Assembly (NCBI RefSeq): GCF_010731895.1
Contig: NZ_AP022596.1
Location: 4,092,001-4,156,000, forward strand
Length of the DNA stretch: 64,000 nt
DNA from: Mycolicibacterium helvum
GTDB lineage: Bacteria; Actinomycetota; Actinomycetes; Mycobacteriales; Mycobacteriaceae
Direction of reading: 5' to 3'
The stretch's first letter is position 1; each line of letters opens with the position of its first letter. The translations under genes were made by a program, and so were the position numbers. Shown here one piece after another: positions 17,354 through 43,746 of the stretch. The notes beneath the pieces were generated by a model. The model did no database searches. It was not told the DNA's origin and saw only the letters and a program-made list of their open reading frames with translations.

Positions 17354-17380
17354 TCATCCCGAAAGTGAGATGGGGCGGAG

Positions 17381-24259: not shown

Positions 24260-25266
24260 CGGCACACCACCAGATTCTGTTGGGCAAAGGAAACCTCGCC
24301 GATACCGGGCAGGGTCACTTCGCCACGCGTGCAGGAAAACGTTGGTGTCGCGGGTTGTTCATCGACCAGCCAGTCCCGCATGCCCTGGATCAACGATGGA
24401 GCGAGCGACAGGCCTGCGATGATCGTGGGGGTTTGCGGCCACATCCGGCTGGACAGGTCGTAGAGCGGACCGGTCGTCCCGTCGAACGTGCGCTCGAAAT
24501 ACTGCAGAACGTGGGTGGTGCTGCGCAGGACGGGCAGTCCGCTGTCCAGGGCGGCGCGGAATTCTTCAGCCTTCGAGCCGAATTTCGCCAGCACCTCGTT
24601 GAGCTGGGAGATGAGCGCAAACAGTTGTCCTGATTTGCCACCCAGATCTTGGGAGATCGCGCTGAGATTGCGGATCATGGTGGTGATCACGACCTGGCGG
24701 TCGACCGCCAGCTTGGAGATTTCGTCGAGGTCGTGAAGGAATGGGCCGATACCGGATTCGTCGCCCTGAATCAGCCGCAGCAGGTTCTCGCCCAACAGAT
24801 TGAACTGGGCGGGGTCAAGGGTCTGGAACATCGGCTGAAACCCGTTGAACAGCTTCGCGACATCGAACGACGGGATCGTCTGTCCGATCGCAATGATGCC
24901 ACCGTCCGGCAGGCGGTTGTCGGGCTTGGGTGGCTGGACAAGCTCGACGTAGCGCTGACCGATCAGGGTCTGATAGCGCACCGCGGCAACGGTGTTGGTG
25001 TACAGCGGATGGTCGGCTTGGGCGCTGAAATCCACCTTGGCGACCCGCCCGTCGAGCCGGATGGTCTGCACCTTGCCGACTTGGACCCCGGAAATGCGGA
25101 CGTCGTCACCGACATAGAGACCCGACACATCGGAGAACGTTGCCGTGTATCGGGACAACGCTCCGGTGACCGGACTGCGCAGGGCTGTCAGTACGACGAG
25201 CGTGCACACCACGGCGACCGCGGTGAAGATCGTCAGCCAAATCACGGATTTGGTAACGCTTCTCAC
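24256..25266 (-). CDS. mceB: Mce family protein, MceB position
   Basis: This 336-residue protein has an N-terminal membrane helix (about 6-28) and an MCE domain with SGLYVGDDVRISGVQVGKVQ and LIGQRYVELVQPP. The C-terminal helices end with two cysteines (FSCTRGEV and VVCR). The GTG at 25266 overlaps the mceA stop (GTGA), so the long open upstream extension is not used. Confidence 0.92.
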   Translation of the reverse strand: MRSVTKSVIWLTIFTAVAVVCTLVVLTALRSPVTGALSRYTATFSDVSGLYVGDDVRISGVQVGKVQTIRLDGRVAKVDFSAQADHPLYTNTVAAVRYQTLIGQRYVELVQPPKPDNRLPDGGIIAIGQTIPSFDVAKLFNGFQPMFQTLDPAQFNLLGENLLRLIQGDESGIGPFLHDLDEISKLAVDRQVVITTMIRNLSAISQDLGGKSGQLFALISQLNEVLAKFGSKAEEFRAALDSGLPVLRSTTHVLQYFERTFDGTTGPLYDLSSRMWPQTPTIIAGLSLAPSLIQGMRDWLVDEQPATPTFSCTRGEVTLPGIGEVSFAQQNLVVCR

Positions 25267-26330
25267 CGGCCACCCCCTTGTGGCGCCGCGGAAGGGGAAG
25301 CGGGGGCTACCGAGTCTGCGGCGGGCAGGGCCGCCGCCAGCCCTGGCATGGTGTCCAGGGTGAGTTCGAGATTCAGCCGGACTTTCCCGTTGATGATCGG
25401 AAACGCCGTACTGGTGCGATCCAACAGACCGGATATCCGGTCGTAGGCCGGCGACATACTCCCGACGGCGTAGGAGTACGGCACAAGGACACTCATGATC
25501 CCGCCGAACAACGGGACGAGCCACGTCAGGTGCTTGGCGAAAATCCCGTCAGTGGTGAACAGCAGCTTGCTGAGCTGGTCCATGATCTGGTTCATCCGAT
25601 CCACCCCGTCGGGGTGCGCCAGGAAGTCCATGCCGTTGAGCAGGTCATAGGCCAAGCTGACCAGCGGCACAGCGTCGCTGACCCCGTTGACCACCGAAGC
25701 GAGCACCGAAAGTGATTCCGAGAAAGGCACTTTCTGGGAGTCGGTGAGCATCTTGATCAGATCGAAGTAGGACCGGGTGACCGGTTCGGTGAGGTCGGAG
25801 TGCTTGCGCACGATCCCGATGATGTGGTCGATATCGGGAGAGTCCATGATCCGGCCGAACTTCTGGCCTTGCCGCAGCAGTCCGGTGATCGATGCGGACT
25901 TCACATTGGTGTCGACTGTCAGGGTCTGGTTCGGGCTCAACCGGGGACCCGTTCCGCTGCTGACCAGCTCGACCGCCGCGAGGCCAAAGGTGTTGGAGGA
26001 CATGAAATTCGCCGTGGTGTCGGCGGCCAAGGCCGCGGCCTGGCGCGGCTCGAGCTCGAGGGTGATCTTCTGCTTGTTGAAACCGGCCGACTGCAGGGTC
26101 TTCACCGAACCGATGGTCAGGCCACGGAACTTGACCTCCGCGCCCGGGGTCAGCCCCTCGCCGAGTTTGTCGGCCATCACCGTCAGTTTGAACGTGTCGG
26201 CGTAACTCCCGGTGCCGAGTTGATAGAGCACGGTGCCCGCGACAGCCAGCACCACCGCGGCAATGAGGCCCCGAACTCGCAACGCGCGCGAACTGGGTGT
26301 CCGCCCTCCTTGGTCGGCAGATACAGGCAT
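25263..26330 (-). CDS. mceA: Mce family protein, MceA position
   Basis: This 355-residue protein has a membrane helix near 20-40 and an MCE domain (GLTPGAEVKFRGLTIGSVK, about 59-77; NTFGLAAVELV), with a Pro/Ala/Ser-rich end. It is the first MCE subunit. It is shorter than the 400-plus residues of Mce1A, lacking part of the C-terminal tail. It starts three bases after the yrbEB stop. Confidence 0.92.
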   Translation of the reverse strand: MPVSADQGGRTPSSRALRVRGLIAAVVLAVAGTVLYQLGTGSYADTFKLTVMADKLGEGLTPGAEVKFRGLTIGSVKTLQSAGFNKQKITLELEPRQAAALAADTTANFMSSNTFGLAAVELVSSGTGPRLSPNQTLTVDTNVKSASITGLLRQGQKFGRIMDSPDIDHIIGIVRKHSDLTEPVTRSYFDLIKMLTDSQKVPFSESLSVLASVVNGVSDAVPLVSLAYDLLNGMDFLAHPDGVDRMNQIMDQLSKLLFTTDGIFAKHLTWLVPLFGGIMSVLVPYSYAVGSMSPAYDRISGLLDRTSTAFPIINGKVRLNLELTLDTMPGLAAALPAADSVAPASPSAAPQGGGR

Positions 26331-28832: not shown

Positions 28833-28901
28833 ATGGCGAGCGCTGTTTCTGGGCAGGTGCCGGGGGCGACTGCGCTCGAACGTCATGCCGGTCAGCTCTG
28901 A
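28833..28901 (+). CDS. Possible 22-residue leader peptide upstream of the ThDP enzyme
   Basis: ATG at 28833 has the strong site AGGTGGGGG two bases upstream. It encodes a 22-residue peptide that stops at 28901, overlapping the start of the ThDP-enzyme gene (28885) in another frame. The larger gene has no good ribosome-binding site of its own, so this frame may deliver ribosomes to it by coupling. Peptide function is unknown; it may be only a translational leader. Confidence 0.35.
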   Translation: MASAVSGQVPGATALERHAGQL

Positions 28902-30564
28902 GCGCAACGGCGCAGCGGATGGGCGCAGGCGAGTAGTCGACTACATCGTCGAACACCTGGCGCGGCGCGGCATCCGGCATATGTTCGGTGTGGACGGCGC
29001 CAACATCGAAGACCTCTATGACGCGGCCTACGGCTGCTCCGACGTCACCGCCGTGGTCGCCAAGCATGAGTTCTCCGCAGCGGCCATGGCGGACGCCTAC
29101 AGCCGTGCCGCGGGCGGCATCGGCGTCGTCGTCGCGACATCCGGCGGTGGCGCCCTCAACACCATCCCGGGGCTGGGGGAGTCGTTCGCCAGCCGCGTCC
29201 CGGTCCTGGCGCTCATCGGCCAGCCACCTACGACGACGGACGGCCGCGGGTCATTCCAGGACACCAGCGGTCGCGGCGGCGCCCTGGACGGGGAGGCTTT
29301 GTTCTCGGCGGTGTCCGTTTTCTGCCGGCGGGTGCTGACCCCGGCCGACATCGTGACCGCGTTGCCGCAGGCCCTTGATGCCGCGACAGCCCACGGTGGG
29401 CCCGCGGTGTTGTTGCTGCCCAAGAACATTCAGCAGGCGCTCATTGAGGTGCGGCCGCACGAGGTCACCGAAGGGACGGCGCGCCGGGTCGGGGACCTCG
29501 GCGCGCTGGTCGAGTTGATCCGCAACATCGACGACCCGGTGACGATCATCGCCGGCGACCAGGTCGCTCGCGACGATGCCCGCGCGGAGCTGGAGACGCT
29601 GCGAACGGTTCTGCAGGCGCGCGTCGCCACCGTGCCCGACGCGAAGGACGTGGTCACCGCCGAGGCCGAGCTAGGGGTGACCGGGGTGATGGGGCATCCC
29701 GCGGTGGGTGCCGTGCTGGCCCAGAGCGGGCTGTGCCTGCTGGTGGGCACCCGGCTGCCGCTGATGGCGCGCGCCGGCCTGGAGCAGGAATTGGAATCGC
29801 TGCCGATCGCGTCGGTGGGTTCGGCGCCGCCATATCTACCGGGCACCCACGTGGACAGCGACGATCTGCGCGTGTCGCTGACTCTGCTCGCCGACGGGTT
29901 GGCCGGTTCCACGCAGCGCCGGCCGATCGCGGAACGGGTCGCGCGCGGTGAGCTGACACCCCCGGCGCACGTCGGGGAGGGGGTGCGTTACCGGGAAGCG
30001 ATGCTGACGCTGGACGCGCTGCTGCCGCAGGACAGCGACATCGTTGTCGACGCGGGCAATACCGGCGCAGCCGCCATCCACTGGCTGCCGGCGCGCCGCG
30101 ACGGCCGATTCCTGGTGGCGCTGGGGATGGGCGGCATGGGATACAGCTTCGGCGCCGGCATCGGGATGGCCTTCGCGCGCGAACGTCGTACGGTGGTCAT
30201 CGCTGGAGACGGGGCATTCTTCATGCAGGGCATGGAGATTCACACCGCACTGCACCACCGGCTTCCGATCACCTTCGTGCTGTTCGACAACCATGCACAC
30301 GCGATGTGTGTCACCCGTGAGCAGGTGTTCTTTCGCGATCGCTACAGCTACAACCGGTTCGGCCCCAGCCGGCTCGGCGCCGGCCTGGCCGCCATGTTCC
30401 CGGCATTGCCGTCGATCGAGGTCACCGAGATCGCCGAACTGGCGGTAGCGATCAAGGCCGCGCTGGATGTCGAGGGTCCGTCCGTGGTGGCCGTCGAGTG
30501 CTCAGCCGACGAAATCCCGCCGTTCACAGCCTTCTTGGACGAATCACTACCGAGGGAACACTGA
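28885..30564 (+). CDS. Thiamine-diphosphate enzyme of the acetolactate synthase type
   Basis: This 559-residue protein has the three-domain layout of the acetolactate synthase/benzoylformate decarboxylase superfamily. The catalytic Glu62 lies in AKHEFSAAAMADAY, and the ThDP-Mg motif starts GDG at 441-443 and ends FDN about 28 residues later. Such enzymes decarboxylate 2-oxo acids or join acyl anions to carbonyls. It lacks a regulatory subunit neighbour, so a role in branched-chain amino acid synthesis is unlikely. It opens a nine-gene operon with an ACP, ligase and KAS III-like protein, where it may perform an acyloin-type C-C bond step. The start is ATG at 28885; the next gene overlaps by TGATG. 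Confidence 0.85.
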   Translation: MPVSSERNGAADGRRRVVDYIVEHLARRGIRHMFGVDGANIEDLYDAAYGCSDVTAVVAKHEFSAAAMADAYSRAAGGIGVVVATSGGGALNTIPGLGESFASRVPVLALIGQPPTTTDGRGSFQDTSGRGGALDGEALFSAVSVFCRRVLTPADIVTALPQALDAATAHGGPAVLLLPKNIQQALIEVRPHEVTEGTARRVGDLGALVELIRNIDDPVTIIAGDQVARDDARAELETLRTVLQARVATVPDAKDVVTAEAELGVTGVMGHPAVGAVLAQSGLCLLVGTRLPLMARAGLEQELESLPIASVGSAPPYLPGTHVDSDDLRVSLTLLADGLAGSTQRRPIAERVARGELTPPAHVGEGVRYREAMLTLDALLPQDSDIVVDAGNTGAAAIHWLPARRDGRFLVALGMGGMGYSFGAGIGMAFARERRTVVIAGDGAFFMQGMEIHTALHHRLPITFVLFDNHAHAMCVTREQVFFRDRYSYNRFGPSRLGAGLAAMFPALPSIEVTEIAELAVAIKAALDVEGPSVVAVECSADEIPPFTAFLDESLPREH

Positions 30565-31250
30565 TGACACTGCCCGCACTCGAGGACATCACCGCCCACC
30601 ACAATCAACGGGTCGGGGGCGGCGCCGATCCGATTCCCGGGCTGATGCGCATCGAGACATCGCCCAGGGAGAAGGCCACCCCGATCCTGATGGAGATGAT
30701 CCACGCGGTCTATCCGCATGACGACGTCTTCGGCGAGTTCTGCACCGTCAACGATTTCATCGACTGCCCACCCGACGCGCTGTTCGACTACCTCGCCGAC
30801 ACCCGCTCGCTGGAGGAGTGGACGTACAGCCTGCGCGGGTTCACCCCCACCGATGAAGAGGGGCTCTGGCTGGCCCATGACCGCCTCGGCAGCGAGACCG
30901 AGATCTACACCCGCACCGTCGCCAACCGCGAGGCCCGCACCGTCGACTATCACTGCGCCTGGGACCAGGGCCGGCATCTGTGGATGATCTATCTGATGCG
31001 CGTGGTGGATGCGCAGGTGGTGTTCAACAAGCCGGGATCGGTTGTGCTCTGGACCAACTGCCACCATCCGTTCTACGACGACAATCCGTATCCCGAGACC
31101 GCGCCGCCGGAGCGTCCGGTCTGGGTGGGTGACTTCTGGGAGATGTTCGGCGCGGGCCACGAGCTCGAGCTGAAGAATCTGAAGGCCATTGCCGAGTACC
31201 GGCACCGCAACGGGCTGCCCATCACCCCGGACTGGATGCGAACATCATGA
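30564..31250 (+). CDS. SRPBCC (START-like) fold protein
   Basis: This 228-residue protein has a segment typical of polyketide cyclase/START-like proteins, FIDCPPDALFDYLADTRSLEEW (key residues Cys, Pro and Trp, about 57-79), followed by alternating strands and a long C-terminal helix region. Such proteins bind hydrophobic ligands and can act as cyclases, aromatases or carriers. It is coupled on both sides (TGATG before, ATGA after) to the ThDP enzyme and the KAS III-like gene, so it probably acts on the same acyl intermediate. Specific chemistry is not recognisable. Confidence 0.72.
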   Translation: MTLPALEDITAHHNQRVGGGADPIPGLMRIETSPREKATPILMEMIHAVYPHDDVFGEFCTVNDFIDCPPDALFDYLADTRSLEEWTYSLRGFTPTDEEGLWLAHDRLGSETEIYTRTVANREARTVDYHCAWDQGRHLWMIYLMRVVDAQVVFNKPGSVVLWTNCHHPFYDDNPYPETAPPERPVWVGDFWEMFGAGHELELKNLKAIAEYRHRNGLPITPDWMRTS

Positions 31251-32275
31251 GCCCCGCCCAGCCCGCGGTCAGCCTGATCGACGTCGCCACCTACCTGCCC
31301 GAAAATCGGGTTCCCGCGCAGTGGTACACGCAATTCGGCGACAACGACGATCTGCGTGACAATCCGATGTTCCGACCACCGGACTTCCGTCATCACGCCG
31401 CCGACGACGAATCCAATGTCGACATGATCGAGCGCGCCGTCGCCGAATTGGTGGCCCGCCACGGGGCCGACGTGCTGGGCGAGGTCGACGTCCTGCTCAC
31501 ACACTCTCAACTGCCCGATCTGCCCATCCTCGGGGCAGGCGGCGAGGTCGCCAAGCGCTTGGGGATCAGTCCCGAGTGGATCATCGACGTGCATAACGGC
31601 GGCTGCGCGGCGTTCGTGTTGATGCTCAAACTGGCTCGCCAGCTACTGGTCAGCGGCGCCGGTCGCACCGCGCTGATCGCCGTCGCGCAGAACGCCGCAG
31701 GCAAGATCTTCGAACAAGACCAGGTCCGCAAGCTGGCCCAGGCGTCGGTCCCCGGCGACGGCGCAGCCGTTGGATTGGTCACGCTCTCGGACAACTCGCC
31801 GGTGCTCGACATCGAATGCCGCTACTTCGGCGAGAACGCCACCGACATGACCCTGGCGGCCGATCCAGCGCGGCGGTGGTGGGAGGCCGGCCCGGGACAG
31901 GGCTACGTGGGGTTCAACGAGGGCAAGATCATCAAGGTGCTCGCCCGCGGTAACCGGCAGGTGCCCCAGGTGGTGCGTGCGGTGTGCGACCGCATCGGAG
32001 TGAAGCCGGGCGACCTCGACCTGCTGGTCACCAACCAGCCCAACCGGTTGCTGCTGCGCAACTGGAATGAGGCGCTGGGGATTTCACCCGAACGTCACCG
32101 CGATACCTTCCACGAGTGCGGCAACCTGTTCGCGGTCGCCATCCCGGTCAACTTCGAGGCCGCGATCCGCGATGGCCAGATCGGGGCCGGCGACATCGTC
32201 ATGATGGCCGGGTTCGCGCACGCCGGAGACTTCGCCGGTGCCGCCGCCATCCACTGGGGCGGAACCCGGAAATGA
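31247..32275 (+). CDS. KAS III (FabH)-like thiolase-fold protein with altered catalytic triad
   Basis: This 342-residue protein is of KAS III type. The acyl-accepting cysteine is Cys120 (HNGGCAAF) and the oxyanion Asn is Asn293 (HECGN). The usual catalytic His (PHQAN in FabH) is replaced by Asn263 in VTNQPNRLLL; the 30-residue gap to Asn293 equals that in E. coli FabH (244 to 274). Loss of His argues against ordinary decarboxylative condensation. Related FabH-like enzymes in natural-product clusters can catalyse acyl transfer or non-standard condensations. The gene overlaps the ACP gene by ATGA, so ACP is the likely partner. Confidence 0.85.
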   Translation: MSPAQPAVSLIDVATYLPENRVPAQWYTQFGDNDDLRDNPMFRPPDFRHHAADDESNVDMIERAVAELVARHGADVLGEVDVLLTHSQLPDLPILGAGGEVAKRLGISPEWIIDVHNGGCAAFVLMLKLARQLLVSGAGRTALIAVAQNAAGKIFEQDQVRKLAQASVPGDGAAVGLVTLSDNSPVLDIECRYFGENATDMTLAADPARRWWEAGPGQGYVGFNEGKIIKVLARGNRQVPQVVRAVCDRIGVKPGDLDLLVTNQPNRLLLRNWNEALGISPERHRDTFHECGNLFAVAIPVNFEAAIRDGQIGAGDIVMMAGFAHAGDFAGAAAIHWGGTRK

Positions 32276-32544
32276 CGGCAGCCGGCCGACCGCCGACGAC
32301 GCTGGCCGCGGTCACCCAGGACATCATCGGACTCATCGGATCCGAAACCGACGGCGCCGCCATCGATCTCACGGCGGACTCAGGCCTGCAAGACGCCGGC
32401 CTGGATTCGGCCCGGGTGCTGTCGCTGGTCTTCCGCATCGAAGCCCGCTACGACATCGACTTGGACGCCGAGGACGGTGACGACCTGCGCACCATTGGTG
32501 AGCTGGCTCAGTTGGTACTACGCCGCATTCAGGAGCGCCCGTGA
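32272..32544 (+). CDS. Acyl carrier protein
   Basis: This 90-residue acidic helical protein carries a phosphopantetheine site at Ser46 in AGLDSARVLSLVF, the ACP signature with Ala in place of the usual Leu after Ser. It would carry the acyl group loaded by the adjoining fatty-acyl-AMP ligase. It overlaps the KAS III-like gene (ATGA) and the ligase gene (GTGA), which fixes its start at 32272. Confidence 0.88.
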   Translation: MTAAGRPPTTLAAVTQDIIGLIGSETDGAAIDLTADSGLQDAGLDSARVLSLVFRIEARYDIDLDAEDGDDLRTIGELAQLVLRRIQERP

Positions 32545-34151
32545 ACGGCGCCCCGGCGATCCAGCCCAAGTTCGAGACGCTCACCGAAATGCTCGACAGT
32601 GCAGCGCACAGCGGCCAGAGCCTGTTCTTCGTCGACCGCAACGAGAACGACATCGACGTGTCCTTTGCCCAGATTCGCCGGCACGCCGGCGAACTCGCCG
32701 CCGGCCTGCGCGCCGCCGGTGTGCGCCCCGGCGATCGTGTCGCACTCGTGCTGCCGACCGGGCCGGACTTCGTCGCCAGCTTCTTCGGCGTGCTCTATGC
32801 GGGTGCCATCCCCGTGCCGCTGTACCCACCGGTGCGCCTTGGCAAGCTCGACGAGTATCGCCACCGCACCGCGGCGATGCTGCGGGCAGTTCAGGCGGTC
32901 CTGATCGTCACCGAGGATCGGATCCGTCCGCTACTGGAGTCCGACGAGACTCGCTGTCTTACCGCAGCCGAATTACACGGCAGCGAAAGCGATGAAATCA
33001 GGCTGTCTGCAACTGATCTGGCGTTGGTTCAATTCTCCTCGGGCACCACGCACGATCCCAAGCCTGTCGCCCTCACTCATGGAAACCTGCTGCACAACCT
33101 CGCCGCGATCGCCGACTACTTCGTCCGGGCAGGCATGCCCGAGCAGGTGGGTGTCACGTGGTTGCCGCTGTACCACGATATGGGGCTGATCGGAAACCTG
33201 TTGATGGCGTTCTATCTTCCCCGCCCTTTGGTGTTGCTGCCGCCGGAACTGTTCCTTGCGGTGCCCGCCGCGTGGCTGCGCGCGATCTCGCGACACCGCG
33301 GCACCGTTACCGCGGCACCCAATTTCGCTTTCGGCTTGTGCCTGAAACGGATTCGCGACGAGGACCTGGCCGGTGTCGACCTGAGTTCGTGGCGGTTGTG
33401 CCTGAACGGCGCCGAGTTGACCAGCGCCGAGGTTCAGCGGCGATTCAGCGAGCGCTTCGGGCGCTGGGGATTCGATGCCAGCGCCTTCACTCCGGTCTAT
33501 GGGCTGGCCGAGGCGTCGCTGGCGGTGACCTTCAAGCCGGCCGGCAGCATGTTCGGAGTCTGCGAGCTCGACAACAAGGAGCTGGTGAGCACGGGTCGCC
33601 CGTTGGCAGGGGTCGAGGTCGAAATCCGCGGAGACGATTCGCGTCCCTTGCCCGAGGACCAGGCTGGACACATCTTCGTGCGAGGACCGAGCGTGATGGC
33701 CGGTTACTTCGGCCGCGCCGACCTCACCGGTCAAGTGTTACATGACAGCTGGCTGGATTGCGGTGACCTCGGATTCATCCATGCCGGTGAGCTTTTCGTC
33801 TGCGGGCGCAGCAAGGAGACCGTGATCATCCGCGGGGCGAACCACGCACCCCAGGACTTCGAAGCGGCACTTGACGGGATAGCCGGTGTCCGCACCGGCT
33901 GCGCGGTGGCCGTCGGCTACCTGCCGGTCGACGCCGACGATGAGGCACTGGCCATGCTCGTCGAGACCACCGCTGATGCACCCGACGACTTGGCGGTCGA
34001 CGTGGCAGCACGGGTGCTGGCGCGCACCGGTATTGCCGTCGGGCACGTCGAGCTACTGGCGCCGGGTACGTTGCCTCGGACATCCAGCGGAAAACTCCGC
34101 CGGCTGGAGGCGCGTACCCAGTGGCTGGCGGGAACGCTGTCGTCGTGTTAG
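32541..34151 (+). CDS. Fatty-acyl-AMP ligase (FAAL)
   Basis: This 536-residue ANL enzyme is of the FAAL group, which loads fatty acids onto ACPs rather than CoA. It shows PVPLYPPVR (91-99), P-loop FSSGTTHDPK (165-174), TWLPLYHDMGLIG (206-218), VYGLAEAS and the C-terminal SSGKLRR lysine. After the P-loop the usual PKG is PKP. The GTG at 32541 overlaps the ACP stop (GTGA), strongly suggesting it charges that ACP. Chain length of the substrate is not predictable here. Confidence 0.88.
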   Translation: MNGAPAIQPKFETLTEMLDSAAHSGQSLFFVDRNENDIDVSFAQIRRHAGELAAGLRAAGVRPGDRVALVLPTGPDFVASFFGVLYAGAIPVPLYPPVRLGKLDEYRHRTAAMLRAVQAVLIVTEDRIRPLLESDETRCLTAAELHGSESDEIRLSATDLALVQFSSGTTHDPKPVALTHGNLLHNLAAIADYFVRAGMPEQVGVTWLPLYHDMGLIGNLLMAFYLPRPLVLLPPELFLAVPAAWLRAISRHRGTVTAAPNFAFGLCLKRIRDEDLAGVDLSSWRLCLNGAELTSAEVQRRFSERFGRWGFDASAFTPVYGLAEASLAVTFKPAGSMFGVCELDNKELVSTGRPLAGVEVEIRGDDSRPLPEDQAGHIFVRGPSVMAGYFGRADLTGQVLHDSWLDCGDLGFIHAGELFVCGRSKETVIIRGANHAPQDFEAALDGIAGVRTGCAVAVGYLPVDADDEALAMLVETTADAPDDLAVDVAARVLARTGIAVGHVELLAPGTLPRTSSGKLRRLEARTQWLAGTLSSC

Positions 34152-36355
34152 CGGGTATCGCTCGGCTTGCGACGCACGCTCCTCGCCGGATGATCGCGGT
34201 CGCGGCGCTCGTTCTGGTCGGCACCGCGGCATTCGGAATTCCGGTGGCCGGCCGGCTTTCTGCCGGCGGCCTCACCGACCCCGGCGCCCAGTCGTCACAG
34301 GCAAGGACCCTGCTGGCCCGCACCTTTACCCAAGGTGACATGCCGCTGCTGATCACCGTCAGCTCGCCTGCCGGCGCGAATTCCAGCGCTGCGCGGACGG
34401 TGGGCACCGAGATCGTGCAGACGCTCACCGGGGCGCCGAATGTGGCGATGGTGACCTCGCCGTGGACCGCACCACCGTCCGCGGCCGCATCGCTGATCAG
34501 CAAGGACGGCACGATCGGCGTCATCGTGGCAGGCATCACCGGCGGTGACAACGGCGCACCCAAGAACGCCGGCGCACTGATCAGCAAGGTCGTACACGAT
34601 CGTGACGGTGTGACCGTGCGGGCCGGCGGTGAGGCAGCGCTGATGCTGCAGATCACCCAGCAGAGTGAAAAAGACCTGAAGATTATGGAAGGCGTTGCGA
34701 TTCCGCTGAGCTTTCTGGTTCTCGTCTGGGTGTTCGGCGGCCTGGTGGCGGCCGCGCTGCCGCTGGCGGTCGGTGCCGTCGCGATCTTCGGTGCGATGGC
34801 CGTTCTGCATGTGGTCACCTTCGCCACCGACGTGTCGATCTTCGCGCTCAATCTCGCTGTGGCACTGGGGCTGGCGTTGGCCATCGACTACACGCTGCTC
34901 CTGCTGAGTCGGTTCCGCGACGAATGTGCTGCTGGTGCGGAGCGCAACGAGGCGCTGATGCGCACCATGGTCTCTGCGGGCAGGACGGTGTTGTTTTCCG
35001 CGATGACGGTGGCGCTGTCGATGTCGGCGATGGTGCTCTTCCCGATCTATGCGCTCAAGTCATTCGGCTATGCGGGCGTCGCTGTGGTCGCGTTTGCCTC
35101 TCTCGCCGCTGTTTTCGTGACGCCGGCCGCGATCGTGTTGCTTGGCGACCGCCTGGACTCGCTGGATCTACACCGCTGGCTGCGACGCCCGGTCGCGGCC
35201 GTACGCCCGATCGAGGAGAGCCCGTGGTATCGGCTGGCGATGTTCTCGATGCGCAGGGCGGTACCGGTCGCAGTGGCGATCGTCGCGTTGTTGGTCGCGC
35301 TCGGTGCGCCCTTTCTGACCGTCAAATGGGGGGTTCCCGATGACCGGGTCCTGCCGACGTCGAGTTCGTCGCACGTGGTCGGCGACCAGTTGCGCACGCA
35401 GTTCAGCGCTGACCTGGCCAAGAACCTGACCATCGTCATACCGGATGTCAACGGCGTCAGTCCGGTCCAGCTCGACAGCTACGCTGCCGCGCTGTCGCAG
35501 GTCTCCGACGTGTCGTCGGTGTCCTCACCCGGCGTCACCTTCGTCGGCGGTGCCTCCGTGGGACCGCCGACGGCGGCGACCGCGATCACCAACGGCAGCG
35601 CGTTCCTCACCGTCACCAGCACTGCGCCGCTGTATTCGCGCGCATCCCAGACGCAGCTCGACGCGCTGCAAGCCGTTCCCACTCCGGCCGGCCGGCAGGT
35701 GCTGATCGGTGGGACACCCCAGGTCAACCAGGACACCGCCAGCGCGATCGCATCCCGGCTGGGTCTGGTGCTGGCGATCATCGCCGGTATCACCTTCGTG
35801 CTGCTGTTCTTGATGACCGGCAGCGTCGTGGTTCCGCTGAAGGCGTTGATACTCAACGTCTTATCGCTGACCGCCGCATTCGGCGCGTTGGTGTGGATCT
35901 TCCAGGACGGCAATCTCGGCGCCCTGGGCACCACCTCAACCGGGACTCTGGCGATCAGCATCCCCGTGCTGTTGTTCTGTATCGCCTTCGGCCTGTCGAT
36001 GGACTACGAGGTGTTCCTGGTGTCGCGCATCCGTGAATTCTGGCTGGCGAGCGGCAAGTCCGCCGCGGACAACGACAGAAGCGTCGCACTGGGGCTGGCG
36101 CGCACCGCGCGAGTGATCACGGCCGCCGCGCTCATCATGGCCATCACCTTCGCGGCGCTGTCCGGCGCGCAGGTGTCGTTTCTGCGGATGCTGGGAGTCG
36201 GTCTCACGTTGGCGATCCTGGCGGATGCCACCCTGGTGCGCGTCCTGCTGGTCCCGGCCTTCATGCACTTGATGGGCCGCTTCAACTGGTGGGCGCCCAG
36301 ATCGCTGGTGTGGCTCCACCAACGAGTAGGAATCCGGGAGGCACCCCATGTCTAA
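34145..36355 (+). CDS. MmpL-family RND transporter
   Basis: About 736 residues. It has two halves of six membrane helices each, with a large extracytoplasmic loop after helices 1 and 7. The proton-relay segments are in the expected places: GLALAIDYTLLLLSRFRDE in the first half and FGLSMDYEVFLVSRIREF in the second. MmpL proteins export lipids and siderophores. The start is taken at GTG 34145, which overlaps the FAAL stop; a GTG at 34121 is possible. It overlaps the next gene by 8 bp. No MmpS partner is present. It most likely exports the product of this operon. Confidence 0.88.
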   Translation: MLAGIARLATHAPRRMIAVAALVLVGTAAFGIPVAGRLSAGGLTDPGAQSSQARTLLARTFTQGDMPLLITVSSPAGANSSAARTVGTEIVQTLTGAPNVAMVTSPWTAPPSAAASLISKDGTIGVIVAGITGGDNGAPKNAGALISKVVHDRDGVTVRAGGEAALMLQITQQSEKDLKIMEGVAIPLSFLVLVWVFGGLVAAALPLAVGAVAIFGAMAVLHVVTFATDVSIFALNLAVALGLALAIDYTLLLLSRFRDECAAGAERNEALMRTMVSAGRTVLFSAMTVALSMSAMVLFPIYALKSFGYAGVAVVAFASLAAVFVTPAAIVLLGDRLDSLDLHRWLRRPVAAVRPIEESPWYRLAMFSMRRAVPVAVAIVALLVALGAPFLTVKWGVPDDRVLPTSSSSHVVGDQLRTQFSADLAKNLTIVIPDVNGVSPVQLDSYAAALSQVSDVSSVSSPGVTFVGGASVGPPTAATAITNGSAFLTVTSTAPLYSRASQTQLDALQAVPTPAGRQVLIGGTPQVNQDTASAIASRLGLVLAIIAGITFVLLFLMTGSVVVPLKALILNVLSLTAAFGALVWIFQDGNLGALGTTSTGTLAISIPVLLFCIAFGLSMDYEVFLVSRIREFWLASGKSAADNDRSVALGLARTARVITAAALIMAITFAALSGAQVSFLRMLGVGLTLAILADATLVRVLLVPAFMHLMGRFNWWAPRSLVWLHQRVGIREAPHV

Positions 36356-37454
36356 GGCTGCGAAGGTGCCGCCGGCCTGGCTCGCCCGCGCCGTCGAGTG
36401 GACGCGCCATCATCTGCTTCTGCTGCATCAGCGGATGCTGCCCGCACCTATGGCGATGATGGAACTGGTGGTGTCGGGGTGGCCCGCGCAGGCGATCACC
36501 ACAGCCGCGCAACTGGGTATCGCCGATGCGCTCGCCGACGGGCCGCTGGCGATCGACGAGCTGGCCGCGCGGGTGGGCGCCGACGCCGATGCGCTGCGCC
36601 GGCTGATGCGGGCGCTGATCGGCCGGGGAATATTCCGTCGCCGACGCGACGGCCGCTACGCACTGAATTCGCTTGCCGCCACCCTGCGTTCCGGCGCGCC
36701 CATCTCGCTGAGGGGGGCGGCACTGTTCCAGGGCTCCCAGGAGCAGCGCGAGCGCTGGACTCTGCTGACCGACTCGGTCCGAACGGGTGAGTCCATCGTC
36801 CCGGCATTGCGTGGCATGGATGGCTTCGACTACCTCGTCGAAATACCCGATCACGCCGAACTTTTCGATCAAACGATGACCAGCCTTGCCCAGATGACGC
36901 TGGCCGTGGTGGTGGCCAGCTATGACTTCGCGTCCCATCACACCATCGTCGACGTCGGCGGGGGACAGGGCGCGATGCTGGCCGCCATCCTGGCTGCGAC
37001 GCCCACGTCGAGGGGCGTTCTCTACGACGTGCCGCGCGTGGTCGCCGGCGCCCCAGAGTTGTTGCGCACCAACCATGTCGCCGACCGTGTGCAGATCGTG
37101 GAAGGGTCCTTCTTCGACCACGTTCCCAGTGGGGGCGATGCCTACCTACTCAAGAACGTCATCCATGACTGGGCGGACGACAAAGCATTGCAGATCCTGC
37201 GCAATGTGCGGGCGGCAGCCAAGCCGGGAGCCACCGTGCTGCTGGTCGAGATGGTCGTTCGCGAGAATGGCCGCGACGGCCCGGAGAACTGGGTGGATCT
37301 GGAGATGCTGCTGAATTTGGGATCCCGCGAGCGAACCGCGCAGGAGTACCGGAATCTGCTGCAGCAAAACGGCTTCCGGATGACCCGGGTGGTGCCGACC
37401 GCCTCACCGCTCAGTGTGGTCGAGGCTGTCGTCGACGATGCGTCACCGGGCTAG
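36348..37454 (+). CDS. SAM-dependent O-methyltransferase, plant-OMT/hydroxyneurosporene type
   Basis: This 368-residue protein has an N-terminal winged-helix dimerisation domain (about 45-110: AAQLGIADALADGPLAIDEL) and a Methyltransf_2-type catalytic domain. The SAM loop is VDVGGGQGAM (about 200-210), with a later DAYLLKNVIHDWAD (about 263-276) containing the His of the family. These enzymes methylate hydroxyl groups on lipids, polyketides and phenolics. It overlaps the MmpL gene, so it belongs to the operon. Substrate unknown. Confidence 0.85.
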   Translation: MSKAAKVPPAWLARAVEWTRHHLLLLHQRMLPAPMAMMELVVSGWPAQAITTAAQLGIADALADGPLAIDELAARVGADADALRRLMRALIGRGIFRRRRDGRYALNSLAATLRSGAPISLRGAALFQGSQEQRERWTLLTDSVRTGESIVPALRGMDGFDYLVEIPDHAELFDQTMTSLAQMTLAVVVASYDFASHHTIVDVGGGQGAMLAAILAATPTSRGVLYDVPRVVAGAPELLRTNHVADRVQIVEGSFFDHVPSGGDAYLLKNVIHDWADDKALQILRNVRAAAKPGATVLLVEMVVRENGRDGPENWVDLEMLLNLGSRERTAQEYRNLLQQNGFRMTRVVPTASPLSVVEAVVDDASPG

Positions 37455-37457
37455 GCG

Positions 37458-38201
37458 GTGGCGCTGATGGATATCGCAACCATGCCGCGCGGCGGGTTCG
37501 ACGCCTCATGGCTGGACCGGCGCCTGCAAACCGACCGGCCGGAATACCTCGACCGCGACGACGTCGACGATCGCGTCAAGCGGCAGGTGATCTGGTCGCT
37601 TGACTGGATGGGCCGGATCCTGCGCGATCACGACCACCTCGCCGCCCGGGCCCTGCCGCTGGTCGCAGGCATCGGCGACCCGAAGATTCTGGAACTGGGC
37701 GCCGGCCACGGCGCGTTGTCGCGCGCGGTACTGAAAATGCACTCCACCGCGCAGGTTACGGTGACCGACATCGATCCGGTGTCGGTCTCGAATATCGCTG
37801 CCGGCGACCTGGGCCGTCATCCGCGCGCCGCCGTGCGTAGGGTCGACGCCACCGACATCGATGCCCCCGACCGGTCCTACGACCTCGCTTTGTTCGCCCT
37901 GTCGTTTCATCACCTGCGGCCCGCCCAGGCGGCCCGGGTGTTGACCGAAGGAACCCGGGTGGCGGACAAGCTGGTGGTGTGCGACCTGCGTCGGCCACCG
38001 GCCCCGGTGCACGTGCTCCGGCTGGTGTCGATGCTGCCCTTCGTCTTCCTGCCATTCGCTCACGACGGCTTGATCAGCTCGTTGCGCGCGTACAGCCCCT
38101 CGGCATTTCTGGCGTTGGCCGCGCACGCCGACCCGGCGATTCGCCTCGAGTTCAGCCGACTCGGGCGTAACCAGGTCGTCGTGGCGTCGAGGGTGACGTG
38201 A
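37458..38201 (+). CDS. Class I SAM-dependent methyltransferase
   Basis: This 247-residue protein has a Rossmann-type SAM domain: motif I ILELGAGHGALS (about 77-88), an acidic strand end at VTDIDP, and a UbiE-like LALFALSFHHLRP segment (about 143-155). The C-terminus is hydrophobic (VHVLRLVSMLPFVFLPF), suggesting a lipid or membrane-near substrate. It starts at GTG 37458, or ATG 37467, just after the O-methyltransferase stop, and overlaps the P450 (GTGA). It would add a second methyl group to the product. Confidence 0.82.
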   Translation: MALMDIATMPRGGFDASWLDRRLQTDRPEYLDRDDVDDRVKRQVIWSLDWMGRILRDHDHLAARALPLVAGIGDPKILELGAGHGALSRAVLKMHSTAQVTVTDIDPVSVSNIAAGDLGRHPRAAVRRVDATDIDAPDRSYDLALFALSFHHLRPAQAARVLTEGTRVADKLVVCDLRRPPAPVHVLRLVSMLPFVFLPFAHDGLISSLRAYSPSAFLALAAHADPAIRLEFSRLGRNQVVVASRVT

Positions 38202-39508
38202 GGGCGGCGTCGACGGTGGCGGCGCTGGGCCGGGCCGCCTGGGCCGGGGTGGACCCGGAAGGATTCTTCCGCCGCCACGCGTCCGACAGAAAGCCGTTCG
38301 GAGTGCGGTTCCCCGGACTCGGCGAGGTGCTGTTCTTCTCGACCGCAGACGGTGCGCGCGACATACTGACCGCTCCGGGCTCTCAGTGCCGGGCGCCACT
38401 GCCCAACCCGATCGAACCGGTCGTCGGACAGAACTCGCTGATCCTGCTGTCCGGTGAGGCTCATCGGCGGGCCAGAAGCATCCTGACGCCCCCGTTTCGC
38501 GGTGAACTCGTGCGCTGCTACGCCGATGTGATCGCCGAGGTTACCAACGGCGAGATCGCGGGCCTGCAACCCGGCGAACAGTTGCTGGTCGGCCAAGCGG
38601 CCCAGCGCATCACCCTGGATGTAGTGATCCGCGTGGTGTTCGGCGTGACGGACAGCGCCCGCCGCAGTGAGTATGCCCGGGTGACAACGCAATTACTACG
38701 ATCCGGCAGCGCGGCGCTGATGCTGGTGCCGTGGTTGCGCCGAGATATCGCTGGGCGGGGTCCGTGGGCGCGGCTGGTTTCCTTTCGCGCGGAGCTCGAC
38801 CGGTTGCTGTCAGATCAGATCGAAGAGCGAAGGCGCAGCGGCGAACACGGCGGCGATGTACTAGGCCTGATCCTCGCCGCTACCGACGAGGTCGGCAGCC
38901 TGCCCGGCGACGAAGTGCTGCGTGACCAACTGCGGACAATGCTCGCTGCCGGGCACGAAACCAGCTCGACCTCGTTGGCGTGGGCACTGTTCCACATTCA
39001 CCGTGACGACAGGATCCGCGGACGAGTCATCGAGGAGTTGGCGACGGCGGCCACGCCGGCGGAGATCGCTACGCTGCCTTATCTGGGCGCGGTGATCCAC
39101 GAGACGCTGCGCATGCATCCGACGGTGCCGATCGTGTTACGTCGGCTCACTGCACCGCTGACGGTGGACGGCGTTGTCTGCTCGGCCGGTGATGTGGTGG
39201 GAATCGCCTTGCCCGCATTGCATTTCAACCCCCGGATGTGGAGCGATCCGGAGTCCTTCGTGCCGGAGCGGTTCCTGGACGCCAAGCCGTCACCATTTCA
39301 GTACGCGCCGTTCGGCGGCGGGTACCGTCGTTGCATCGGTGCGGCCTTCGCGCATAACGAGTTGGCGGTGGCGATCGGCACCGTTATGAAAACACTCGAC
39401 TTGCGGCTGCCGGCGCACCAACGCGGCAGCCTGCCGCGAGCGGTGCCCCGCGGCATTGCCACCAAGCTCAGTCGCGAGATCACCTTGGATGTGATCGCGC
39501 GACGGTGA
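38198..39508 (+). CDS. Cytochrome P450
   Basis: This 436-residue protein has all P450 landmarks: the I-helix AGHETSS (about 251-257), ExxR in HETLRMHPTVP and the haem-binding loop FGGGYRRCIG with Cys at about 379. It would hydroxylate or otherwise oxidise the product, using a ferredoxin encoded elsewhere. It is the last gene of the operon and meets the convergent aminotransferase gene with no gap between stops. The length and PFGGGYRRCIGAAFA pattern fit lipid-oxidising bacterial P450s, but the substrate is not assignable. Confidence 0.92.
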   Translation: MRAASTVAALGRAAWAGVDPEGFFRRHASDRKPFGVRFPGLGEVLFFSTADGARDILTAPGSQCRAPLPNPIEPVVGQNSLILLSGEAHRRARSILTPPFRGELVRCYADVIAEVTNGEIAGLQPGEQLLVGQAAQRITLDVVIRVVFGVTDSARRSEYARVTTQLLRSGSAALMLVPWLRRDIAGRGPWARLVSFRAELDRLLSDQIEERRRSGEHGGDVLGLILAATDEVGSLPGDEVLRDQLRTMLAAGHETSSTSLAWALFHIHRDDRIRGRVIEELATAATPAEIATLPYLGAVIHETLRMHPTVPIVLRRLTAPLTVDGVVCSAGDVVGIALPALHFNPRMWSDPESFVPERFLDAKPSPFQYAPFGGGYRRCIGAAFAHNELAVAIGTVMKTLDLRLPAHQRGSLPRAVPRGIATKLSREITLDVIARR

Positions 39509-40720
39509 TCACTGGCGATAGGTCGCCAGAAACTGCCCGATTCGCTCGATGGTGGATCCCAGTTCGTCGGCATGGGGCAGGGTCACGATCCGGATGTGGT
39601 CGGGCTCGGGCCAACTGAGGCCCGTCCCAGGGATGATATGAATCTTCTCCTGCAGCAACAGATCGAGGACGAACTGCTCGTCATCGCGGATCGGGTACAC
39701 GCTGAGGTCGATCTTCGGAAAGGCATACAGCGCGCCTCTGGGCTTGACGCACGAGACACCTGGAATCGCGTTGAGGGCGACCCACGCGCGGTCGCGTTGC
39801 TCGTGCAATCTACCAACGGGCAGAGTGAGGTCGATGTCCGACTTCTCGGCATCCAGCGCAATCCGAATCGCCTGTTGGGCCGGCACATTCGCGCAGCGGC
39901 GCAATCCAGCCACGGTCGCCAGGCCGTCGAGGTAGCTCGTGGCGTGGTCGGTCGGTCCCGACACCGCAAGCCAGCCGGCGCGAAACCCCGCACAGCGGTA
40001 CGCCTTGGACAGACCGTTGAAGGTCAGACAGAGCAGATCCGGCGCCAGGGACGCTGTCACGGTGTGCGTGGCGTCGTCGTACAGGATCTTGTCGTAGATC
40101 TCGTCCGAGCAGACGACGAGGTTGTGTTCCCGTGCGATCTCGAGGATCTCGGTCAGTACTTCGGGCGGGTACACCGCGCCAGTGGGATTGTTGGGGTTGA
40201 TGATCACAATCGCGCGCGTTCGGGCGGTGACCTTCGCCGCGATATCGGCGACGTCGGGGTACCAGTCCGATGATTCGTCGCAACGATAGTGAACGGCGCG
40301 GCCACCGTTGACGTTGACTGCGGCGGTCCAGACCGGGAAGTCGGGCGCGGGCACCAGGACTTCGTCGCGATCTTCGAGCAGCGCGGTCATCGCCATCGTG
40401 ATCAATTCGGAGGCGCCATTGCCGAGGAACACGTTCTCGACGTGGACATCCGGGACAGCACGGGCCGAGTAGTACTGCGTGACGGCGTGCCGCGTCGACA
40501 GCAGCCCTTTGGGCCCGGTGTAGCCGGCCGATGCGGCCAACGTTGCGGCGATCTCGCTAACCAGTTCGGCGGGTGCCTCGAAACCGAACGGATGCGGATC
40601 GCCGGCATCCAGTCGCATGACATGGTGTCCAGCCATTTCCAGCCGGGCCGCCGCTTCGGCGATCGGGCCCGGGGTTTCGTGCGACAGGTTGGACAGCCTG
40701 CTCGACTGCGCGAACTTCAT
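39509..40720 (-). CDS. aspC: Class I/II aminotransferase (AlaT/AspC type)
   Basis: This 403-residue PLP enzyme of fold type I has PNNPTGAVYP (about 175-184), SDEIYDKILYD and the Schiff-base lysine in FNGLSKAYRCAGFRAGW. It matches the alanine/aspartate aminotransferase annotated aspC (Rv0337c) in M. tuberculosis and probably interconverts alanine/pyruvate with glutamate/2-oxoglutarate. The ATG at 40720 has AAAGGA upstream. It is a single gene, convergent with the P450. It marks the return to core genome at the end of the biosynthetic operon. Confidence 0.9.
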   Translation of the reverse strand: MKFAQSSRLSNLSHETPGPIAEAAARLEMAGHHVMRLDAGDPHPFGFEAPAELVSEIAATLAASAGYTGPKGLLSTRHAVTQYYSARAVPDVHVENVFLGNGASELITMAMTALLEDRDEVLVPAPDFPVWTAAVNVNGGRAVHYRCDESSDWYPDVADIAAKVTARTRAIVIINPNNPTGAVYPPEVLTEILEIAREHNLVVCSDEIYDKILYDDATHTVTASLAPDLLCLTFNGLSKAYRCAGFRAGWLAVSGPTDHATSYLDGLATVAGLRRCANVPAQQAIRIALDAEKSDIDLTLPVGRLHEQRDRAWVALNAIPGVSCVKPRGALYAFPKIDLSVYPIRDDEQFVLDLLLQEKIHIIPGTGLSWPEPDHIRIVTLPHADELGSTIERIGQFLATYRQ

Positions 40721-41058: not shown

Positions 41059-43746
41059 GTGCGGGGGAGCCGTGCGCCGCACGGAAGAGCGCTACGAGGG
41101 AAGGCTGGCCTGCCATTGAACTGGCCGTTCGTTGCCCGGTCGGCGGAGATCCACCAAGCGATGGACGCCGTCGACAACTCGTCTTTCAGCGGCGTCGTTT
41201 TCGTCGGGGAGGCCGGTGTCGGTAAGACCGCGCTGGCACGTCAGGTAGCTGAACGGTTCAGCGGCCGCGGGATGCGGACCCATTTCGTCCTGGGGACTCA
41301 GACATCTCGGGACGTGCCGCTGGCGGCCTTCGCGGGCATCGTGCAGATCCCGGGTGCACTTGAACCGATCCGCCTGCTCGCCGCGGCCCACGCCGCGCTC
41401 GACGACGTGGAGAACCTGCTGCTGGTCGTCGATGACGCGCATTTGCTCGATCCGCTTTCGGCGATCGTCGTGCACCAGCTCGCCGTGCGCGGGGCGGCCA
41501 CGCTGATCGTCACCATGCGCACGGAAACCGAGGTCCCCGACGCCATCACCGCGTTGTGGAAAGACCAGTACCTTCGCCGCATCGAGGTCGGCGCGTTCTC
41601 GCACGCCGACACCGGGCGGCTGCTCACCGAGACGTTGGGTGGCCCCGTCTCCGGCACCGTCGTCGACCAGCTTTACGAGTTGTCGGCGGGCAGTCCGCTG
41701 CTGTTGCGTGGCCTGATGGACACCGCGGTGGACGACGGTGCGCTCACCGACGACACGGGCCGGTGGCGGCTCACCCATTCGCCGCGGCTTAGCTCAGATA
41801 TCGAGGAACTGCTGGAGTCTCGGGTTCGCGGCCTGCCGCCAAACGAGCGTGACGTTCTCGAAATCGTCGCAGCCGCAGAAGTTCTGGACTGGAACGCGCT
41901 CCGGTCGATGTGTGATATCGACGCGATCAGCGATGCTGAACGTCACGCTGTCATCCACGTGATCAGCGACCCGCTACGCATGCGTGTTCAGGTGGCGCAC
42001 CCGGTACTGGCTGACGTCGTGCGCAAGAACTGCGGTGTGGCGCGGCTGCGGCAGATCAACACGTCTCTGGCGCAGAAGTTTTGGTCGCTGGTCGGTGATT
42101 CGGACCCGAATGCGGCGCGGGACCCGCGGCTGGTCATCGAACTCGCCCGGCTGATGATGAACAGTGATGCGACACCGGACGTCAGCCTGGTGATTGATGC
42201 CGCCGAGAGTGCGATGACGATGTCCAGTCTCGCGCTCGCCGAACAGCTGGCGCGGTTCGCCTACGAGCATGGCGGGGGATTGCGCGCGGCCATCGCGCTT
42301 GCTGATGCGCTGGGCTGGCAGGGTTTCAACGAGCAGGCTGAAGAGCTCTTGGCGTCCTTCGATCCGCGCGACGAGGTCATGCTTGTGCGTTGGGGGTGCC
42401 TGCGGGCCACCAACCTGTTCTTCGGCTGCGGGCAGCGAGTGGAAGCCGAGGAGGTATTGGGCACCGTCCGCTCCCGCGTCACCCTTCCCGCCCTGCGCAG
42501 CTACGCGCTGGCGGTCGAGGCGTCCATCGCCTACTTCGCTGCCGACCTCGACACCGCCGACGCGGCAAGCGCGGCCGTCATCTCCGATCCGGACGCGATG
42601 CCGATGGCAGTTCTGTGGGCGGCAGTCCCGGCCGCGGCGTCCGCGAACCTCCGAGGTCGGCCCGAGGTGCTGGCGGCCGCGGCCAGCCGTGGCGCCGACG
42701 CCGCACTGCACTGTGCGTCCGGGCCACACCAATACGCCATCTCGTTGTCGGAGGCGCTCTCGGCGCTCAACCGCGGTGACATCGCCGCCGCCGCGGCGAT
42801 CGTCGACCGGCAGCAGGCCCAGGCTCACGGGGCCCCGCACGCCGAGGCCATCGTCGCCGCAATGGCAGGCCGCGTGCAGCTTGCGGCCGGGCACCCGCAG
42901 GCCGCCTGCGACTGGCTGCAGCGTGCGTTGTCCGCGATGGTGTCCACCCTGTCTGGTGGCTGGGTGCCTCTGGTTGCGGCCTGGACCGTCCAGGCCGAGG
43001 TACTGCGCGGTGACAGCGGTGCGGCCGCCCGAGCACTGAGCATGGCCGAAGGCGCGTGGGGACCCGCGGTGGAAGTGTTCCGGCCATTGCTCGAGCTGGC
43101 CAGGGCGTATCTCGGCGCCGCCACCGGCGCGACCGCCGAAGCCCACAGCGCGATCGAGCGGGCCGCGGAAGCCGCCCACCGCTCCGGTGGCACCACCGGC
43201 GAGCTGGAAGCGCTCTATACCGGCTTGCGGTTCGGGATGGAACCCGACGTTGCCCGATTCAAAGCCCTTGCAGAACAATTGAATACGCCTATTGCCACGC
43301 TTGCGGCGGAGCAGGCGCAAGCGGTCACGACCGGCGACGGGGAAGGCCTCGACCGGGTGGCCACTGAATGGGAATCCCTAGGGATGGCGGCGCATGCGGC
43401 CGACGCCTTCGCTGCCGCGGCGCTGGCACACCGGCGAGCGGGCGCACGGCTGTCGGGGCTTCAATCCTCGACGCGGGCGCACTGGCTGGTCAGTACCTTC
43501 GGGCTGCATACTCCTGCGACGGCAGCCGGCGGAGTTCCGTTGCCGCTCAGCGGTCGTGAGCGTGAGATCGCGACCCTGGTCGCGGACGGGCTGACAAACC
43601 GGCAAATCGCCGAACGGCTGGTGGTATCGATCCGCACCGTTGAAGGCCACCTCTACCGGGTGTTCAAACAGCTCGGAATCAACGAACGCGAGCAGCTGAT
43701 CCGTCTGATGCGCAACGCCGATCCTGACACACCGGTAAACGGCTAG
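41059..43746 (+). CDS. Large LuxR-family regulator with N-terminal ATPase domain
   Basis: 895 residues if it starts at GTG 41059, which follows a TAATAT -10 element by 9 bp and may be a leaderless start; TTG 41115 is an alternative. An AAA/STAND-type ATPase domain shows Walker A VGEAGVGKTAL near 50-60 and Walker B LLLVVDDAH near 125. The middle is helical and repeat-like. The C-terminal LuxR helix-turn-helix reads LSGREREIATLVADGLTNRQ (start near 830). Such proteins are ATP-dependent activators of carbon or lipid metabolism genes. The ligand and targets are unknown. Confidence 0.88.
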   Translation: MRGSRAPHGRALRGKAGLPLNWPFVARSAEIHQAMDAVDNSSFSGVVFVGEAGVGKTALARQVAERFSGRGMRTHFVLGTQTSRDVPLAAFAGIVQIPGALEPIRLLAAAHAALDDVENLLLVVDDAHLLDPLSAIVVHQLAVRGAATLIVTMRTETEVPDAITALWKDQYLRRIEVGAFSHADTGRLLTETLGGPVSGTVVDQLYELSAGSPLLLRGLMDTAVDDGALTDDTGRWRLTHSPRLSSDIEELLESRVRGLPPNERDVLEIVAAAEVLDWNALRSMCDIDAISDAERHAVIHVISDPLRMRVQVAHPVLADVVRKNCGVARLRQINTSLAQKFWSLVGDSDPNAARDPRLVIELARLMMNSDATPDVSLVIDAAESAMTMSSLALAEQLARFAYEHGGGLRAAIALADALGWQGFNEQAEELLASFDPRDEVMLVRWGCLRATNLFFGCGQRVEAEEVLGTVRSRVTLPALRSYALAVEASIAYFAADLDTADAASAAVISDPDAMPMAVLWAAVPAAASANLRGRPEVLAAAASRGADAALHCASGPHQYAISLSEALSALNRGDIAAAAAIVDRQQAQAHGAPHAEAIVAAMAGRVQLAAGHPQAACDWLQRALSAMVSTLSGGWVPLVAAWTVQAEVLRGDSGAAARALSMAEGAWGPAVEVFRPLLELARAYLGAATGATAEAHSAIERAAEAAHRSGGTTGELEALYTGLRFGMEPDVARFKALAEQLNTPIATLAAEQAQAVTTGDGEGLDRVATEWESLGMAAHAADAFAAAALAHRRAGARLSGLQSSTRAHWLVSTFGLHTPATAAGGVPLPLSGREREIATLVADGLTNRQIAERLVVSIRTVEGHLYRVFKQLGINEREQLIRLMRNADPDTPVNG

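Follow-up and report, generated by a model that had tools for sequence, protein, structure and literature searches.

The stretch of Mycolicibacterium helvum DNA analyzed here (the window: 64,000 nucleotides, C1:4092001-4156000 of a 6.4 Mb one-contig genome, NZ_AP022596.1) contains nine consecutive plus-strand genes encoding a thiamine diphosphate (ThDP) enzyme, an SRPBCC protein, a protein resembling β-ketoacyl-acyl carrier protein synthase III (KAS III; this enzyme is called KAS below), an acyl carrier protein (ACP), a fatty acyl-AMP ligase (FAAL), an MmpL transporter, two methyltransferases and a cytochrome P450. An earlier note, made from the sequence alone, had described this block as one biosynthetic operon; all nine genes were found at 28885-39508, and their families were confirmed using Pfam and NCBIfam, save for the SRPBCC gene, which was placed through the PDB (Table 1). 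That gene set stands, but it left out the convergent aminotransferase gene that follows. The eight successive junctions from the ThDP to the P450 gene measure -1, -4, -4, -4, -31, -8, +3 and -4 bases (a reading of the translation places the true MmpL start possibly at a GTG near 34145), and this spacing points to a single transcript; the claim of one operon is correct or plausible. The FAAL has as its best NCBIfam match PRK09192 fatty acyl-AMP ligase (421 bits, under the cut-off of 600) and as its best PDB match the fatty acyl-adenylate ligase 3pbk, with FadD32 and FadD23 also scoring high. The O-methyltransferase-like protein is nearest in the PDB to AlpH (8h3t, E 3e-91), and its reaction is therefore not to be taken for granted; PDB matches of the P450 are generic only. 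A literature search on the pathways of BbmA and CsmA, the best PDB relatives of the ThDP enzyme, returned nothing, and these were not used in reading its role.

Table 1. Features of the operon and its downstream flank in the window (SAM, S-adenosylmethionine; PLP, pyridoxal phosphate).
Feature	Position	Strand	Basis
ThDP enzyme	28885..30564	+	Pfam TPP_enzyme N/M/C; KHE and GDG motifs; best PDB relatives BbmA, CsmA
Putative SRPBCC carbazole synthase, CqsB2-like cyclase	30564..31250	+	PDB 6ipv
KAS III-like condensing enzyme, CqsB1-like in role	31247..32275	+	Pfam ACP_syn_III, ACP_syn_III_C; KAS III fold
Acyl carrier protein	32272..32544	+	Pfam PP-binding E 2e-9; GLDS motif
Fatty acyl-AMP ligase (FAAL), predicted ACP loader	32541..34151	+	NCBIfam PRK09192; PDB 3pbk
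MmpL transporter, predicted exporter	34121..36355	+	Pfam MMPL, 2 stretches
Aromatic O-methyltransferase-like protein	36348..37454	+	Pfam dimerisation and Methyltransf_2; HDW and SAM motifs
Class I SAM methyltransferase	37458..38201	+	Pfam Methyltransf_25/12/11
Cytochrome P450, tailoring enzyme	38198..39508	+	Pfam p450 E 1e-55; heme motif FGGGYRRCIG
Convergent PLP aminotransferase, probable 2-oxo acid supplier	39509..40720	-	Pfam Aminotran_1_2
LuxR-type protein, possible cluster regulator	41059..43746	+	Reading of translation

Carbazoles with fatty tails are a class of antioxidant alkaloids known mainly from Streptomyces. Carbazole assembly as described there uses a trio consisting of a ThDP enzyme (CqsB3/NzsH), an SRPBCC cyclase (CqsB2/NzsI) and a KAS III-like enzyme (CqsB1/NzsJ), with homologues named in Sorangium and Scytonema (PMC7466098). 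The window trio matches this described trio, and its scaffold is thus predictable as an indole-derived carbazole; the earlier note, whose enzyme roles are plausible, had overlooked the relationship. For the SRPBCC protein itself, Pfam gives nothing and NCBIfam only a weak hit (ScyC, E 1e-4). A reading of the locus as an unknown pathway was dropped after this protein matched CqsB2, as were a relationship to ScyC and scytonemin and an OleA-like or dialkylresorcinol-type condensation, both far weaker than the CqsB2 match. That the operon instead makes a generic acyloin-type methylated lipid with a scaffold unrelated to carbazoles, as the earlier note had it, is permitted by the enzyme families but very improbable in view of the specific CqsB2 relationship and the matching trio.

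Two loci served as yardsticks for the described type. In that of Embleya (NZ_CP108777.1; L108), the SRPBCC protein shares 85% identity with CqsB2 over 179 residues, and one ThDP and two KAS III-like matches accompany it; in L085, of the same class, SRPBCC identity to CqsB2 is 72%, and the trio is adjoined by a HisC-like aminotransferase. Both have Cys-His-Asn in the KAS at the CqsB1 position and Glu at position 105 of the SRPBCC protein. The window SRPBCC protein retains four of the five CqsB2 catalytic residues, with Asp106 where the yardsticks have Glu105; the adjoining ThDP enzyme, whose CqsB3/NzsH-like substrate role is predicted, is 35% identical to that of L085, and the adjoining KAS is 27% and 25% identical to those of L085 and Embleya, respectively. 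Alignments with FabH and PqsC, read by residue columns, give C120-N263-N293 in the window KAS instead of the Cys-His-Asn of both yardstick loci (CqsB1 itself lying outside the comparison). Asn occupies the His position in 46 of 47 rows of the KAS locus set, the exception being L085. Among homologues sorted by likeness to the window, and hence biased toward its own subtype, Cys120, Asn263 and Asn293 occur together in 120/120 KAS proteins (best 120 of 2171), and Asp takes the Glu105 position in 119/120 SRPBCC proteins (best 120 of 1153), where D106, H199 and E202 are each missing from one row. Since the yardsticks pair Glu with His and the window and these homologues pair Asp106 with Asn263, two subtypes can be told apart at the sequence level, Glu/His and Asp/Asn, the window belonging to the latter.

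The KAS is the chief uncertainty. Its reaction may differ from that of CqsB1, because the triad His is missing and identity to the yardsticks is merely 25-27%; loss of the His would fit a readily decarboxylating free β-keto acid (as opposed to malonyl-ACP) or a switch to acyl transfer. CerJ-like KAS III enzymes do transfer acyl groups to oxygen, and if the window KAS merely acylated an acyloin oxygen the product would be a fatty acyl ester that the SRPBCC protein binds or isomerizes. The uniform Asn among the 120 homologues speaks for this alternative; it is nevertheless very unlikely, as it would leave a cyclase of CqsB2 type, four of whose five catalytic residues are kept, without an evident task, and as ThDP, SRPBCC and KAS genes stand together in most loci inspected (the exceptions are L091, with its KAS apart on the other strand, and the L021 stretch, with no SRPBCC gene and a scrap of ThDP only).

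The locus has close relatives in strains such as those of Mycolicibacterium sphagni, M. rhodesiae and M. vinylchloridicum. The window arrangement (A1) is trio-ACP-FAAL-MmpL-O-methyltransferase-methyltransferase-P450 with the convergent aminotransferase. When the block was compared with mycobacterial genomes, as the earlier note had proposed, 14 of 20 A1 loci held all nine genes in the same order (counting L014, whose MmpL match spans 61% of its length); three lack only the second methyltransferase (L015, L100, L101), one lacks MmpL to P450, and two are cut by contig ends. The nine-gene arrangement is therefore not a matter of chance. In the locus without MmpL to P450 (L099, genome G172), a 38-residue MmpL match is left at about 7626-7857, and the core and aminotransferase are kept. 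The LuxR-type gene has a relative adjoining L004, L006, L009, L010 and L099. In a second arrangement (A2; L016, L017, L018, L025), trio, ACP and FAAL occur with an aminotransferase sharing 64-66% identity with the type B enzyme (described below), a flavin monooxygenase-like gene and a divergent P450; MmpL follows in L016-L018, and none was found in L025. Two related loci, L019 and L021, show fewer genes of the set within the stretch examined. In the KAS tree, from which the partial locus L020 was excluded, A1 forms one clade (96/92) and type B another (97/98), each on one side of a branch, and A1, A2 and L023 group together (99/97); A2 is not one group (L021 stands beside L023), and the branch of L085 is very long. 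(The ThDP row of L021 is a 75-residue scrap.) At L024, a chalcone/stilbene-synthase-like gene (16448-17605) follows the P450, where other A1 loci carry the aminotransferase.

Across Mycobacterium in the wide sense, 268 of the 396 genomes have an SRPBCC match at E <= 0.001 (257 if only the 362 good-quality genomes are counted), a few of these matches being weak or split, and 263 of the 396 have a KAS match at E <= 1e-60. In four genomes of 3.1-3.3 Mb (G075, G115, G329, G089), the SRPBCC matches are weak or split, possibly decayed copies. KAS identity is 82% or more (A1) in 27 genomes and 72-80% in 16 (A2-like, with gene content inspected in L016-L021, L023 and L025, of which L023 has no ACP or FAAL match); the remaining KAS matches among those listed are at 70% or less, and those of them inspected with wide flanks are of type B. 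In a class-wide draw of 394 genomes from 137 genera, 29 genomes and 7 genera had a match; apart from the window's own genome, 18 of these 29 belong to its genus. In L086, from outside the order, an MmpL-like gene (43%) lies upstream of the trio, separated from it by one gene. The gene content, homology, retained cyclase residues, conservation and co-occurrence reported here are direct observations.

The window genome carries a second trio near secY (C1 about 1248600-1253000; L028 12060-18446), directly downstream of an extracytoplasmic function sigma and anti-sigma factor pair (sigL-rslA) and followed by a HisC-like aminotransferase and a MarR gene. Its ThDP, SRPBCC and KAS proteins are 63, 80 and 64% identical to those of the window and of the same Asp/Asn subtype, but it differs in these neighbors and in having no ACP or FAAL match. 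This type B arrangement, a trio and HisC-like aminotransferase downstream of sigL and rslA, was seen in all seven wide-flank loci (L028, L096, L097, L098, L102, L103, L104); the MarR gene comes next in six, and in L098 an MmpL gene 64% identical to the window's takes its place. Among 16 genomes picked for lacking the SigL-linked copy, 12 have a sigL match, and at 10 of their 14 sigL loci the MarR gene stands together with sigL and rslA while the trio is absent; the block thus behaves as a presence/absence island. PMC13002591 places the M. tuberculosis MarR gene rv0737 immediately downstream of sigL-rslA and describes the position of its ortholog as varying between species, that of M. smegmatis lying in a separate cluster; oxidation lowers the affinity of RslA for SigL (PMC2877774). 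A redox-controlled antioxidant alkaloid system is a natural hypothesis for the SigL-linked trio. Outside the genus, L089 (7899-16370) has a trio and aminotransferase near a sigL-like/rslA-like pair, from which three genes separate them.

Six matches to the window SRPBCC protein came from plasmid records. In Tsukamurella tyrosinosolvens (NZ_LR134449.1; L105 9813-13637), ThDP, SRPBCC and KAS genes stand in a row and have the Asp/Asn residues, with SRPBCC and KAS 68% and 54% identical to those of the window; unlike the window, no ACP, FAAL or MmpL is annotated within 12 kb of this trio. The T. tyrosinosolvens SRPBCC protein is 96% identical to that of L093, a locus with similar surroundings. (A flavodoxin-domain gene lies upstream of the T. 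tyrosinosolvens trio, and a TrpB-like gene nearby.) Lipocarbazoles have been isolated from T. pseudospumae Acta 1857, according to a title cited in PMC7466098, and share with carbazoquinocins and carazostatin a 1-alkyl-2-methylcarbazole frame (PMC11350554). The pairing of the Asn-type KAS with the Glu105-to-Asp change, together with the Tsukamurella occurrence, suggests that this subtype may make mono-oxygenated lipocarbazoles, for which a review calls the A-ring machinery unidentified (PMC7466098). Elsewhere, a plasmid of Rhodococcus opacus (L106 7107-11717) carries a trio next to a hemerythrin gene and several further SRPBCC genes, and on a plasmid of Rhodococcus oxybenzonivorans (L107 10651-11337) the KAS that adjoins ThDP and SRPBCC gives a match across only 67% of its length and goes unlisted as a gene.

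Supply of the two precursors would differ from that in the described clusters, where the KAS III CqsB5/NzsF begins the acyl chain (PMC7466098). No such enzyme for short β-hydroxyacyl-ACP is present in 28885-40720, which holds one KAS III-like gene and the FAAL, and the FAAL likely takes its place. CqsB1 and CqsB2 accept β-hydroxyacyl groups only, and the carbazoquinocin and carbazomycin enzymes likely use plain acyl groups (PMC7466098); a FAAL-fed route would fit the latter class. An aminotransferase copy 78-94% identical to the window's is present in 6/6 A1 genomes tested and 0/24 others, and a second copy, 57-60% identical, in 30/30; the window genome has the same pair. The copy traveling with the cluster belongs to another subfamily than the described indole-3-pyruvate suppliers. 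In 15 of the 27 A1 genomes a second trio is missing (from KAS match counts, five candidates being scored per genome), and a B-type aminotransferase from such a trio is therefore unavailable to them. Models of tyrosine and alanine aminotransferases also give scores with the adjoining aminotransferase, and the closest PDB relative of the SigL-linked one is a putative phenylalanine aminotransferase, so that the same enzymology might act on phenylpyruvate or 4-hydroxyphenylpyruvate to give a 1-alkyl-2-methyl-naphthalene-diol or naphthoquinone. This is unlikely: the cyclase retains most of the CqsB2 catalytic set, a benzene ring should on chemical grounds be a poorer nucleophile than indole, and lipocarbazoles are known from a genus with the same Asp/Asn subtype.

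Compared with the carquinostatin (cqs) and neocarazostatin (nzs) clusters (PMC7466098), the locus shares the trio, ACP, a P450 (NzsA) and an aminotransferase (CqsB7). By Pfam it has no prenyltransferase, isomerase or CqsB5-type KAS III within 28885-40720, and instead has FAAL and MmpL, a Cys-Asn-Asn KAS, Asp at Glu105, two methyltransferases and an AlaA-like aminotransferase. The chlocarbazomycin (chlCz) cluster of Streptomyces tubbatahanensis shares an aminotransferase, ThDP enzyme, KAS III, ACP, SRPBCC protein and O-methyltransferase (size 365), but the consulted portion of PMC10100901 names FAD oxidases and short-chain dehydrogenases/reductases, proposes acetyl-ACP as acyl donor, and names no FAAL or P450. 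The operon thus resembles a carbazole pathway in its core genes, the pathway ACP included, save for the triad of CqsB1 type and the supply of short acyl chains. What it makes and exports is probably a carbazole alkaloid with a lipid tail (lipocarbazole, carbazoquinocin or carbazomycin-like).

Every reaction of such a pathway is inferred, as are its indole substrate, chain length and product. The aminotransferase would convert tryptophan to indole-3-pyruvate and the FAAL would load a fatty acid onto the ACP; the KAS would take the acyl group onto Cys120 and then carry out a decarboxylative condensation with the keto acid, and the SRPBCC cyclase would close and aromatize ring A, giving a 1-alkyl-2-methylcarbazole with oxygen at C3 (perhaps C4). 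The methyltransferases could cap hydroxyls, the P450 oxidize ring or chain, and MmpL move the product to the envelope. Several steps of the earlier proposal (FAAL loading of the ACP, addition of a 2-oxo acid unit by the ThDP enzyme, shaping by the SRPBCC protein, methylation, oxidation and MmpL export, with a small product made without polyketide synthase or nonribosomal peptide synthetase) seem sound or plausible, and its interpretation as a whole is partly supported.

Several points weigh against the carbazole assignment, a prediction from sequences and models. Confidence in the SRPBCC model is middling (pLDDT, the predicted local distance difference score, 78; Foldseek template modeling score 0.61 to CqsB2). 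The KAS lacks the triad His at the low identity given above, and the FAAL is expected to load a plain fatty acid, unlike the substrates of CqsB1/CqsB2. The convergent aminotransferase is alanine-aminotransferase-like and not HisC-like as in L085 and chlCz, and none adjoins the A1 locus L024. Finally, the lipocarbazole link offers support at the level of the genus, T. tyrosinosolvens standing in for T. pseudospumae, and is not proof.

The trio type is known from carbazole clusters; what appears new is the mycobacterial FAAL/MmpL variant. The open-licence literature, searched at modest depth, gave no mycobacterial carbazole synthase and left uncontradicted the earlier statement that no mycobacterial product with this gene set had been described. 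If the assignment is true, a genus known for its lipids would gain a class of antioxidant indole alkaloids that probably act on membranes. The trio is common in mycobacteria, one form lying beside sigL-rslA, which points to an output of the SigL-RslA redox switch that could be tested, and the other having its own FAAL, ACP and MmpL; a KAS III without catalytic His is a mechanistic question for purified enzymes. More tentatively, and with somewhat less than even confidence, a second, His-less class of carbazole assembly may be proposed, in which a Cys-Asn-Asn KAS and an Asp-type cyclase make (mono-oxygenated) lipocarbazoles as a membrane antioxidant in roughly two thirds of Mycobacterium species, mostly under the SigL-RslA switch, the window operon being a FAAL-fed, methylated, MmpL-exported elaboration.

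Upstream of the operon, on the opposite strand, a gene that by eye is mce-family-like (window 25263-26330) is kept beside many A1 clusters.

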